Assembly: GCF_008932245.1 (NCBI RefSeq)
Contig: NZ_CP034909.1
Location: forward strand, 3,280,001 to 3,344,000
Length of the DNA: 64,000 nucleotides
Reading direction: 5' to 3'
Origin: Sinorhizobium alkalisoli
Lineage (GTDB): Bacteria > Pseudomonadota > Alphaproteobacteria > Rhizobiales > Rhizobiaceae
Shown: piece after piece, positions 16,981 to 19,219 of the stretch
Numbering within the stretch: position 1 is the stretch's first letter
Layout of the letters: every line of letters begins with the position of its first letter
Made by a program: the position numbers and the translations under genes
The notes under the pieces: generated by a model
The model's database searches: none
What the model was told of the DNA's origin: nothing
Seen by the model: only the letters and a program-made list of their open reading frames with translations

Positions 16981-17685
16981 ATGAGGCAACCGCTTTCCTC
17001 GACCGTCTGGATCCTGCTGACCACAATCGTTCTCATACTGGCGCTGGTACCCTTCGACGCGTATCTGTCCGAATGGGCAAAGGGCCTGCCGGAAGAAATC
17101 GTCGACTTCAACCGAATGATTACCGATTTCGGCACATTCGCCTGGATGGTTTACGCGTCCGCTCTCCTCTTTCTCGTCGCTTTCATCGCCAACAGCACCG
17201 CTAAGCGCGAGACGGTACGGCAGCAAGCGCGAACGGCGCGCAGCCTTTCCGCCTATTTCTTCCTGACGATCGGCACCGCCAGCGTTCTGGTTCACGGGCT
17301 GAAGTTTCTGATCGGCCGCGCCCGCCCGGAGCTTTTGCAAGACTATGGCGCCTACAGTCTGACACCTTTCGCCGGTGAGCGGGTGTTCGAGAGTTTCCCC
17401 TCCGGCCACTCGACCGCGGCCGGTGCCCTGTTCGGTGCCTTTGCGATGCTGATGCCGCGGTTCCGGCCGCTATTCTTCGTCTTCGCCGTGACGATCGGCG
17501 CCTCGCGCGTGATCGTCGGCGCCCACTACCCGAGCGATGTGGCCGCCGGCCTGCTGCTCGGTCTTTGGACAGCGGTGATGTTTGCCTTCCTCTTTGCTCG
17601 GCAGGGATGGCATTTCCGAAGGGGAGCCAATGGCTGGCCGGTGTCAGGGCCCGCGCAAACCGCTGCGCGGGACGAGCCGCAATAA
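16981..17685 (+). CDS. PAP2 family membrane phosphatase
   Basis: 234 residues with about five hydrophobic segments. The three phosphatase motifs are complete: KFLIGRARP (K108 to P116), PSGH (140-143) with the catalytic His, and SRVIVGAHYPSD (175-186). Such enzymes dephosphorylate lipids or polyprenyl pyrophosphate at the periplasmic face of the inner membrane. GGAGAAGGAG stands just before the ATG. The last 25 residues are polar. A GC-rich inverted repeat follows the stop. The natural substrate (phosphatidate, undecaprenyl-PP or lipid A precursors) cannot be told from sequence. Confidence 0.9.
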   Translation: MRQPLSSTVWILLTTIVLILALVPFDAYLSEWAKGLPEEIVDFNRMITDFGTFAWMVYASALLFLVAFIANSTAKRETVRQQARTARSLSAYFFLTIGTASVLVHGLKFLIGRARPELLQDYGAYSLTPFAGERVFESFPSGHSTAAGALFGAFAMLMPRFRPLFFVFAVTIGASRVIVGAHYPSDVAAGLLLGLWTAVMFAFLFARQGWHFRRGANGWPVSGPAQTAARDEPQ

Positions 17686-17689
17686 AACG

Positions 17690-17711
17690 CCGGCGCGGCA
17701 GGCCGCGCCGG
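17690..17711 (+). terminator. GC-rich hairpin after PAP2 gene
   Basis: CCGGCGCGGC and GCCGCGCCGG form a 10-bp inverted repeat with only two bases between the arms, a few bases after the stop. There is no T-run, so termination is uncertain; it may instead stabilise the mRNA end. Confidence 0.45.
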
Positions 17712-17900
17712 AAGTGGGAGAGTCTCTTACAAAGCCGCACGTCCGGTAAGACGCACGAGGCGGCAGTCTCGGACGAAGAGGATGCCAGAAGCGCGTCCAG
17801 CAAGGCAGGGATGCTTTCGTCCTATGACTTTCGTTTCGTCGAAAAGGGACGCGCGGGTTTTGGCATCGGCTCCGAGAATTGATGCCGGCTTGTCTGCGGC

Positions 17901-17928
17901 TTGACTCTTGCCGAAAAGCCGGTATGAG
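17901..17928 (+). promoter_or_regulatory. Candidate promoter of the asd leader transcript
   Basis: TTGACT (17901-17906, preceded by C as in alphaproteobacterial CTTGAC boxes) and TATGAG (17923-17928) are 16 bp apart. Transcription would start near 17935, only about 17 bases before the leader ORF, a layout seen in attenuator-controlled amino-acid genes. Confidence 0.6.
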
Positions 17929-17951
17929 CAGCGGCGAACGAGGAAACCGCC

Positions 17952-18071
17952 ATGGGACCGATTCTTGCGTCCATCGCTCAGCCGATCCTGCCGGCCCCTG
18001 CCGCCGGGCGGATTCGCCTTTTCTCGCTCGCTAGCAAAACAACGGCCAAAACGACGACGAAAACCGTCTGA
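17952..18071 (+). CDS. Putative attenuator leader peptide upstream of asd (Thr/Lys-rich)
   Basis: A 39-codon ORF with its own GAGGAAA site seven bases before the ATG. It is ordinary up to residue 28 and then ends KTTAKTTTKTV: six Thr and three Lys in the last eleven residues. Asd makes aspartate semialdehyde, the branch compound for Thr, Lys, Met and Ile, so a ribosome slowing at Thr or Lys codons would report on the end products. The layout (promoter, short 5' leader, short ORF with regulatory codons, GC-rich hairpins, then the gene 113 bases on) resembles thrL-type leaders. I know of no described asd leader in rhizobia. The ORF is seen directly; the regulatory role is inferred. Confidence 0.6.
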   Translation: MGPILASIAQPILPAPAAGRIRLFSLASKTTAKTTTKTV

Positions 18072-18086
18072 CGTCTCTGGCCCTCC

Positions 18087-18177
18087 GCTCTCTCCCCGGT
18101 AAGGCCGGGGACAGGAACCTCGCGGGCGAAAACCGCGCGGCTCCCCTCCACCCAACGAGGAGAGACAGAAAGAGAGC
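18087..18177 (+). promoter_or_regulatory. Structured 5' leader of asd with hairpins and anti-Shine-Dalgarno segment
   Basis: Between the leader ORF and asd lie two hairpins: CCCCGG-taagg-CCGGGG (18094-18110) and CGCGG-gcgaaaa-CCGCG (18121-18137). In addition GCTCTCT (18087-18093) is exactly complementary to AGAGAGC (18171-18177), the likely ribosome-binding site of asd. TCTCTCC (18089-18095) can also pair with GGAGAGA (18159-18165). These pairings compete with the first hairpin, which would allow switching. No T-run follows either hairpin, so control of translation or Rho access is more likely than intrinsic termination. Confidence 0.45.
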
Positions 18178-18184
18178 TTTGATC

Positions 18185-19219
18185 ATGGGTTTCAAGATTG
18201 CAGTCGCAGGCGCCACCGGCAATGTCGGCCGGGAGATGCTGAATATCCTTTCAGAACGTGGGTTTCCTGCAGACGAGGTTGTGGCGCTCGCCTCCTCGCG
18301 TTCCGTCGGCACCGAGGTCTCCTACGGCGACAAGACGCTGAAGGTCTCCAATCTCGAAACCTATGATTTCTCCAATACGGACATCTGCCTGATGTCGGCC
18401 GGCGGTGCGGTTTCGCTGAAATATTCGCCGAAGATCGGTCAGCAGGGATGCGTCGTGATCGACAACTCCTCTGCCTGGCGCTACGACGCCGAGGTGCCGC
18501 TGATCGTGCCCGAGGTCAATCCGGATGCGATCTCCGGCTTCACCAAGAAGAACATCATCGCCAACCCGAATTGCTCGACGGCCCAGCTCGTCGTCGCGCT
18601 GAAGCCGCTGCACGAGCGCGCCACGATCAAGCGCGTGGTCGTCTCCACCTATCAGTCGGTGTCCGGTGCCGGCAAGGACGGCATGGACGAACTCTTCAAC
18701 CAGACGCGTGCCGTCTTCGTGGCCGACCCGATCGAGAGCAAGAAATTCACCAAGCGAATCGCCTTCAACGTCATTCCGCATATCGACGTGTTCATGGAGG
18801 ACGGCTACACCAAGGAAGAGTGGAAGGTGCTCGCCGAAACCAAGAAGATGCTTGACCCGAAGATCAAGCTGACCTGCACCGCCGTGCGCGTTCCGGTTTT
18901 CATCGGCCATTCGGAATCGGTCAATATCGAGTTCGAAAAGGAAATCACCGCCGACGAGGCACGCGAAATCCTGCGCGAGGCACCGGGTTGCCTGGTCGTC
19001 GACAAGCGCGAGAACGGCGGCTACGTGACGCCCTATGAATGCGCCGGCGAAGACGCGACCTACATCTCGCGCATCCGCGAAGACGCAACCGTCGAGAACG
19101 GCCTCAATCTGTGGGTCGTCTCCGACAACCTCCGCAAGGGTGCGGCACTCAATGCCGTCCAGATCGCCGAGCTTTTGGTTAACCGCGGCCTGATCAAGCC
19201 GCGCAGCCAAGCCGCCTGA
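18185..19219 (+). CDS. asd: Aspartate-semialdehyde dehydrogenase
   Basis: 344 residues. It reduces aspartyl phosphate to aspartate semialdehyde with NADPH, at the entry to lysine/DAP, threonine, methionine and isoleucine synthesis. The NADP-binding GATGNVG is at residues 9-15, the catalytic Cys is C130 in NPNCSTAQL, and the downstream substrate segment VRVPVFIGHSESVNIEF is conserved. The ATG at 18185 is preferred to a TTG two codons earlier; AGAGAG lies about eight bases upstream. A short Thr/Lys-rich ORF precedes it. DAP is needed for peptidoglycan, so the gene is expected to be essential. Confidence 0.97.
   Translation: MGFKIAVAGATGNVGREMLNILSERGFPADEVVALASSRSVGTEVSYGDKTLKVSNLETYDFSNTDICLMSAGGAVSLKYSPKIGQQGCVVIDNSSAWRYDAEVPLIVPEVNPDAISGFTKKNIIANPNCSTAQLVVALKPLHERATIKRVVVSTYQSVSGAGKDGMDELFNQTRAVFVADPIESKKFTKRIAFNVIPHIDVFMEDGYTKEEWKVLAETKKMLDPKIKLTCTAVRVPVFIGHSESVNIEFEKEITADEAREILREAPGCLVVDKRENGGYVTPYECAGEDATYISRIREDATVENGLNLWVVSDNLRKGAALNAVQIAELLVNRGLIKPRSQAA

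Follow-up and report, generated by a model that had tools for sequence, protein, structure and literature searches.

Aspartate-semialdehyde dehydrogenase (Asd) is the common step on the way to lysine (and to diaminopimelate for the cell wall), threonine, methionine and isoleucine, and the asd locus of Sinorhizobium alkalisoli raises the question whether a ribosome that reads a short peptide upstream of the gene adjusts its expression to two of these products. In the 64,000-nucleotide stretch analyzed here (contig NZ_CP034909.1, positions 3,280,001 to 3,344,000; hereafter, the window), asd is preceded by a 39-codon open reading frame (ORF) whose product ends in KTTAKTTTKTV, that is, six Thr and three Lys among 11 residues; the distance from the leader stop to the asd ATG (18185) is 113 bases. 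Comparative analysis points, with a probability of about 0.6, to ribosome-mediated attenuation, in which asd expression would follow the charging of tRNA-Lys and tRNA-Thr, probably at translation initiation.

The asd gene is recognized by two NCBIfam models, both above cut-off (NF011456, 522.5 bits with a cut-off of 223, and TIGR01296, 461 bits). Read directly, the promoter-like TTGACT-16-TATGAG, the ribosome-binding site GAGGAA, the ORF and its spacing from asd all stand where the original prediction had placed them; a generic sigma-70 scan of the window made no call at TTGACT-16-TATGAG. Among all ORFs of 8-80 amino acids on both strands of the window, the leader alone contains at least seven Lys or Thr in 12 residues, and five ORFs contain at least six.

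Conservation of the leader and its Lys/Thr run

A leader was scored when an ORF stopped 55-165 bases before asd and carried at least seven Lys/Thr per 12-residue window near its end; this rule was shaped after part of the data had been inspected, and of the thresholds 5 to 9, all tabulated with controls, 7 is quoted. The loci comprise 30 of the 33 genus genomes with a match; 87 of the 198 matching genomes at the family level (three of the 198 belong to the genus), namely, the 27 best matches and 60 taken at approximately one per genus; 20 of the 24 order genomes with a match; and 49 of the 73 matching genomes at the class level, where L138 belongs to the same order and L193 is clipped by a contig end. 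Leaders that pass the rule precede asd at 30/30 genus, 73/87 family and 9/20 order loci; in the close relatives, the ORF is thus neither absent nor frame-shifted. At the class level, such leaders are rare (4/49 loci). The controls yield nothing at this threshold, whether the reverse strand (0/137), the region 300 nucleotides further upstream (0/137) or dinucleotide shuffles (0/2740); at a threshold of at least six, 3 of the 2740 shuffles pass. In named records, the best 80 of 585 matches include 73 with at least seven Lys/Thr and 80 with at least six; these rows are close relatives (Sinorhizobium, Rhizobium, Agrobacterium, Shinella, Hoeflea, Roseibium and others), and their genomes partly overlap the earlier sample.

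Of the 71 scorable rows (76 rows in all), 67 have the element TTGAC no more than 62 nucleotides 5' of the leader ATG, so that a conserved promoter-like element precedes the leader. The ATG is found at the expected place in 71 of the 76 rows, which were preselected for having such an ORF, and G/A-rich sequences resembling ribosome-binding sites are visible before the leader in many rows (no count). At the level of sequence, the ORF, its conservation and the position of the promoter-like element are therefore established.

The codons within the run were compared in the long-form set, which consists of 70 family rows picked for having the ORF. At nine run positions, the Ala and Val positions being left out, the single-base variants of the majority codon include 101 synonymous changes, 20 exchanges between Lys and Thr and 25 others, to be set against 21, 7 and 53, respectively, among the 81 available single-base neighbors. 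As judged from these comparisons, the Lys/Thr identity of the run is under selection while the codons change. The N-terminal part of the leader drifts across the family while the Lys/Thr run is kept; the drifting part remains an open frame. The alternative frames of 66 leaders contain 61 stops (+1) and 50 stops (+2), and no stop at all occurs in the +1 frame of 22 leaders and in the +2 frame of 28. The length of the run differs among the rows in whole codons. Lysine is encoded by AAA in 198 of the 221 Lys codons within the last 12 codons of the 70 leaders versus 2 of 23 in asd (AAG in 21 of 23); this preference may reflect sensitivity to starvation or a requirement for unpaired A.

A covariance model of the leader (R1), some of whose family matches are within or close to its training set, has just one match at E <= 1 in this genome, which falls at asd (scores were computed for 150 of the 2389 first-look candidates). 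In a search of 199 order genomes under strict filters, R1 matched 26, own genome included. Twenty of these matches were fetched, and each has its end at the start codon of asd and lies on the asd strand; of the 19 besides the window's own, 17 have at least seven Lys/Thr in the leader and two have six. Rfam models (lysine riboswitch, Thr_leader and others) produce no matches at the gathering score in the window; three sub-threshold matches fall within 17850-18250 (best E 0.18), and the one to the sRNA ar7 (E 0.18, 18.1 bits, gathering score 60) was judged to be due to chance.

Of the 14 family loci that miss the rule, L067 and L101 lack any run, and the run of L063 is weaker (5); the other 11 have a short form, 11-13 residues long, that contains 4 to 8 Lys/Thr/Ile. 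The short form (11-15 residues, Lys/Thr/Ile) is present in L066, L069, L080, L099, L103, L106-L110, L112, L114, L116 and L117. It is probably translated from a leaderless or nearly leaderless transcript, because its ATG is only 35-39 bases past TTGAC in 13 of these 14 rows. Endings of the TTIKTKTTI type, similar to the short form, occur in Hoeflea (L265) and Pseudohoeflea (L269). In Agrobacterium and allied rows (L241, L242, L243, L245, L250, L252, L253, L257 and L260), the run is RITAKTTIKTV, with Ile codons replacing Thr twice; Agrobacterium vitis (L273) retains TTKAKTTTKTV. The biosynthesis of isoleucine starts from threonine. The four class-level loci with Lys/Thr-rich ORFs before asd (L140, L165, L174 and L182) come from other alphaproteobacterial orders and might have arisen independently or belong to an older element of patchy distribution.

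For two further families that include aspartate-pathway enzymes, homoserine dehydrogenase (three loci) and amino-acid kinases (four loci), this genome has no leader with at least seven Lys/Thr. In L171, an ORF with six Lys/Thr approximately 1.3 kb upstream of a kinase domain was judged to be a chance occurrence. Two genus genomes encode a second, distant asd-like gene of 40-41% identity (G003:C3:468860-469867 and G005:C18:11896-12903).

Competing helices and the proposed switch

The region from the codon run to asd contains several segments that can pair in alternative ways (Table 1).

Table 1. Features of the asd leader region, in window positions
Feature	Position	Strand	Basis
Promoter-like element	TTGACT 17901-17906, 16-base spacer, TATGAG 17923-17928	+	Read from sequence
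Leader ribosome-binding site GAGGAA	17940-17945	+	Read from sequence
Leader peptide ORF, 39 amino acids	17952..18071 (ATG 17952, TGA 18069-18071)	+	ORF translation, conservation
Lys/Thr codon run AAA ACA ACG GCC AAA ACG ACG ACG AAA ACC, proposed sensor	18036..18065	+	
Region 1, GGCC across the Ala codon of the run; able to pair with 18079-18082 (helix 1:2)	18044..18047	+	
Small hairpin GACG-AAAAC-CGUC at the ORF end	18056..18068	+	Alignment of 57 rows
Region 2, GUCUCUGGCC, directly 3' of the stop; possible partners region 1 or region 3	18073..18082	+	
Pyrimidine tract GCUCUCUCC, complement of the asd ribosome-binding region (P4, 18087-18093 with 18171-18177)	18087..18095	+	
Region 3, including hairpin P2 CCCCGG/CCGGGG (18094-18099 with 18105-18110)	18094..18112	+	
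3' part of region 3, GGCCGGGGAC, alternative partner of region 2 (helix 2:3)	18103-18112	+	
Hairpin P3, GC-rich, variable, without a U run in the window	18114..18144	+	
GGAGAGA 18159-18165 and AGAGAGC 18171-18177 (asd Shine-Dalgarno region), alternative partners of the pyrimidine tract	18159..18177	+	
asd, aspartate-semialdehyde dehydrogenase	18185..19219	+	NCBIfam matches

Pairing was assessed in an alignment (A1) of 57 of the 70 long-form rows, from which ten near-repeats and the divergent L065, L068 and L070 were excluded; the folding, alignment and covariance work was performed on rule-positive rows. The unprompted picks of RNAalifold for these 57 sequences are the small hairpin at the ORF end, helix 2:3 and three pairs inside helix 2:3. 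Helix 2:3 is paired in 92.5% of the alignment cells and has a covariation score of 0.319, with none of the 500 shuffles as good and a maximum of 0.200 for slid versions. Hairpin P2, a pairing specified by us, unlike helix 2:3, which is RNAalifold's own choice, is paired in 93.6% of the cells, with a covariation score of 0.185 (0/500 shuffles as good, slid maximum 0.054). The two overlap in bases and are mutually exclusive, and both covary. The small hairpin (85.1% of cells paired, covariation 0.336) has its inner G-C pair changed to C-G or U-G in 25 of the 57 rows, such that the Thr codons on its two sides switch in step (ACG..ACC versus ACC..ACG). Compensatory changes in helix 2:3, P2 and the small hairpin are thus established in the alignment; the counts of pairs changed on both sides and of pair types are often matched by shuffles. 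Helix 1:2, which overlaps the codon run, is paired in 85.3% of the cells and would explain the single Ala that interrupts the Lys/Thr run. Regions 1, 2 and 3 co-vary in L084 (AGCC/GGCT/AGCC) and L092 (AGCC/GGCT/AGTC); in L090, regions 2 and 3 are changed together and region 1 is not (GGCC/GGCT/AGCC).

We infer that the leader and asd form one transcript, on which a ribosome would choose between these helices. When Lys and Thr are plentiful, the ribosome would reach the UGA and cover region 2, leaving region 3 to fold on itself (P2); with P2 formed, the pyrimidine tract would pair with the asd ribosome-binding region (P4), and asd would be off. When Lys or Thr is short, the ribosome would stall in the run and cover region 1 (the GGCC of the Ala codon). 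Region 2 would then be free to form helix 2:3, which would open P2 and loop out the tract, so that the asd ribosome-binding site becomes free and asd is on. If the leader remained untranslated, helix 1:2 would form and asd would stay off. Conservation far beyond the genus, the pattern of codon changes and the retention of competing helices all argue in favor of a Lys/Thr-sensing leader peptide for asd, the central claim of the original prediction.

Probable output of the proposed switch and rival explanations

The GC-rich hairpins downstream of the ORF, which the original prediction correctly noted, form no intrinsic terminator in the window, so that in this genus the output is more likely to be masking of the ribosome-binding site of asd. 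The pairing of the pyrimidine tract with its target (P4) was examined sequence by sequence, comparing cognate with re-dealt tract and target, since the count over the alignment has a two-base misregister. This comparison covers 69 rows (L068, which has no tract, was dropped) and keeps L071, L074, L075 and L091, where the tract search took the GGCC region instead. The mean energy is -14.68 for cognate versus -13.74 for non-cognate pairs, with 0/5000 permutations as good; within the far group, 3/5000 permutations are as good. Matching changes of tract and target are visible in L100 and L090. Equilibrium folding with the bases covered by the ribosome blocked (L100 was dropped, and some far-group averages are undefined) yields for the genus a P4 probability of 0.90 without a ribosome, 0.28-0.72 when the A site is 10 to 4 codons short of the stop, and 0.95-1.00 with the A site anywhere from 3 codons before the stop to the stop itself. 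These predicted structures support the masking output in part.

Several results, taken together, weigh against the attenuator as proposed. Under the strict filters, 173 of the 199 order genomes have no match to R1; these negative genomes include G039, G045, G048 and G054, whose asd leaders pass the ORF rule. Much of the compensation in the helices sits on one deep clade split, and helix 2:3 slid by +2 has more cells changed on both sides than the helix in register (34 versus 31). The covariation of helix 1:2 (0.068) does not exceed that of a slid version (0.069), 25 of the 500 shuffles do as well, and the helix is absent from rows without GGCC in the run. In the cognate comparison for P4, 425 of the 5000 permutations are as good within the near group, and the cognate pair beats its own non-cognate mean in just 36 of the 69 rows, including 8 of 34 in the near group. 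The length of perfect complementarity is reached by 3198 of 7000 dinucleotide shuffles, a slide of -2 scores higher on the alignment, and in the far family the pairing misses the Shine-Dalgarno sequence and falls immediately upstream of it. The predicted switching of P4 loses strength in the near family (0.71-0.89 while the ribosome occupies the run, versus 0.96) and is not clear in the far family. For a ribosome placed within the run, helix 2:3 has a mean probability of at most 0.24 in the genus, 0.20 in the near family and 0.09 in the far family, and P2 remains at 0.72-0.99 in the genus; because masked folding keeps helix 2:3 at or below 0.24, this helix rests on covariation, not on predicted stability. 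Finally, the exposure of the asd Shine-Dalgarno sequence and start is nearly constant across the ribosome states (unpaired probability 0.38-0.56 for the genus).

Termination is the main rival, especially in the far clade. Here, the same leader and the same logic of helices 1:2 and 2:3 would drive classical transcription attenuation, with a Rho-independent or Rho-dependent terminator before asd as the output. A tryptophan attenuator is reported at trpE of S. meliloti in the text available for PMC10117765, and 15 of the 70 family rows, all in the far group (e.g., L104, L102 and L073), have weak candidates in which a GC stem (P3) is followed by at least four U in six bases, another point against masking as the general output. 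In the window, however, the + strand between the leader and asd contains no terminator-like site, and 55 of the 70 rows have none by the stem-and-U rule just given. As the search of the window for a terminator was negative, we do not assign this leader to the classical transcription attenuators, and we consider termination before asd an unlikely, if serious, explanation of the leader as a whole.

Far less probable is the possibility that the ORF product is a small protein with a trans-acting role of its own, like that reported for S. meliloti peTrpL, its place before asd being secondary. The tagged SEP5 protein of S. meliloti, the published leader discussed below, is detected by Western blot solely in the soluble S100 fraction (PMC10117765), and peTrpL is required for the regulation of a resistance operon (PMC7298713), according to the accessible portions of these papers. 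Against a trans-acting role, the peptide outside the Lys/Thr run is not conserved across the family, and the short form of 11-15 residues substitutes for it at 14 family loci, with the location before asd kept. Marginally less probable still is a conserved RNA element that binds a protein or a metabolite, with the Lys/Thr reading a by-product of A/C-rich sequence: the AAA bias of the run would fit a need for unpaired A runs and the lack of Rfam matches at gathering scores leaves room for a new RNA class, but the Lys/Thr identity persists through codon changes and Lys-Thr exchanges, the run changes length by whole codons, the ATG is in place in nearly all rows (preselected for the ORF), and the S. 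meliloti ORF is translated, as stated in the available text of PMC10117765.

As for the neighborhood of the leader, the upstream gene (16981-17685, + strand) shows a weak likeness to undecaprenyl-diphosphatases and phosphatidylglycerophosphatase B, with all NCBIfam scores below cut-off. It is followed on its 3' side by a strong GC-rich inverted repeat (17690-17711) that is terminator-like on the minus strand.

Relation to known leaders and the aspartate family

The original prediction held that the leader had not been described; this was mistaken, given that SEP5 of Sinorhizobium meliloti 2011 matches the window ORF in its codon counts and position, the two being equated by description and not by sequence. 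According to the accessible text of the 2023 report (PMC10117765), SEP5 has six Thr and three Lys codons near its 3' end, lies in the 5'-untranslated region of a gene printed as aspartate dehydrogenase, is translated (as detected by ribosome profiling and Western blot), is 'possibly a leader peptide' and is 'conserved only in Sinorhizobium'. This published range is too narrow, since the present analysis finds the leader across the family and in part of the order. The available text of that paper contains no RNA structure, mechanism or report of regulation; a candidate switch is proposed here. Thus, the leader idea itself was already in print for the genus; what is added here is order-wide conservation, a candidate RNA switch and a probable translational output. 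Searches of the open-access literature, mostly at the title and abstract level, found no mechanism for this leader; in the text available for PMC4117421, 'asd' stands for anti-Shine-Dalgarno and no asd leader appears, and that of PMC1273637 and PMC2965389 contains no 'asd'.

Comparison with known attenuators places the asd leader among systems of related design. The thrL attenuator of the Escherichia coli thr operon senses threonine and isoleucine and ends in an intrinsic terminator; in contrast, the leader in the window carries codons for Lys and Thr, precedes asd and lacks a terminator. The sensing of two amino acids, which the original prediction offered as a departure from thrL, is accordingly not new in principle, the thr leader itself reading Thr and Ile; the unusual part is the Lys/Thr pair. 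The LEU element of Actinobacteria resembles the asd leader in combining a leader ORF that contains a codon run with RNA that involves the Shine-Dalgarno sequence of a biosynthetic gene; in the accessible text of PMC1262725, the Leu codon run itself pairs with the Shine-Dalgarno box of leuA, and a pseudoknot is proposed, whereas here a separate pyrimidine tract would pair with the Shine-Dalgarno region and the run can pair with region 2. Within the same genus, the leader-peptide attenuator rnTrpL/peTrpL of S. meliloti, for which an attenuator sRNA and trans functions are reported (PMC10117765 and PMC7298713, as far as the text available goes), is read through Trp codons instead of Lys/Thr codons; its ORF is leaderless, as is apparently also the case for the short asd leaders of related genera.

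Somewhat short of an even chance, in our estimate, is the broader proposition that the leader is an old attenuator of Hyphomicrobiales, scattered in other alphaproteobacterial orders, in which Lys or Thr (in some lineages, Ile) would act as an OR gate at Asd by freeing the asd ribosome-binding site. Lysine is usually sensed by a riboswitch; the OR-gate reading, if true, would provide, to our knowledge, the first case of a biosynthetic gene whose lysine sensor is read by the ribosome, and lysine would join the amino acids that are read by ribosome stalling. What had been described for one genus as a possible leader peptide belongs to a much wider, putatively regulatory element, and a conserved attenuator at asd, if true, would explain the tuning of the aspartate family in rhizobia and their relatives.
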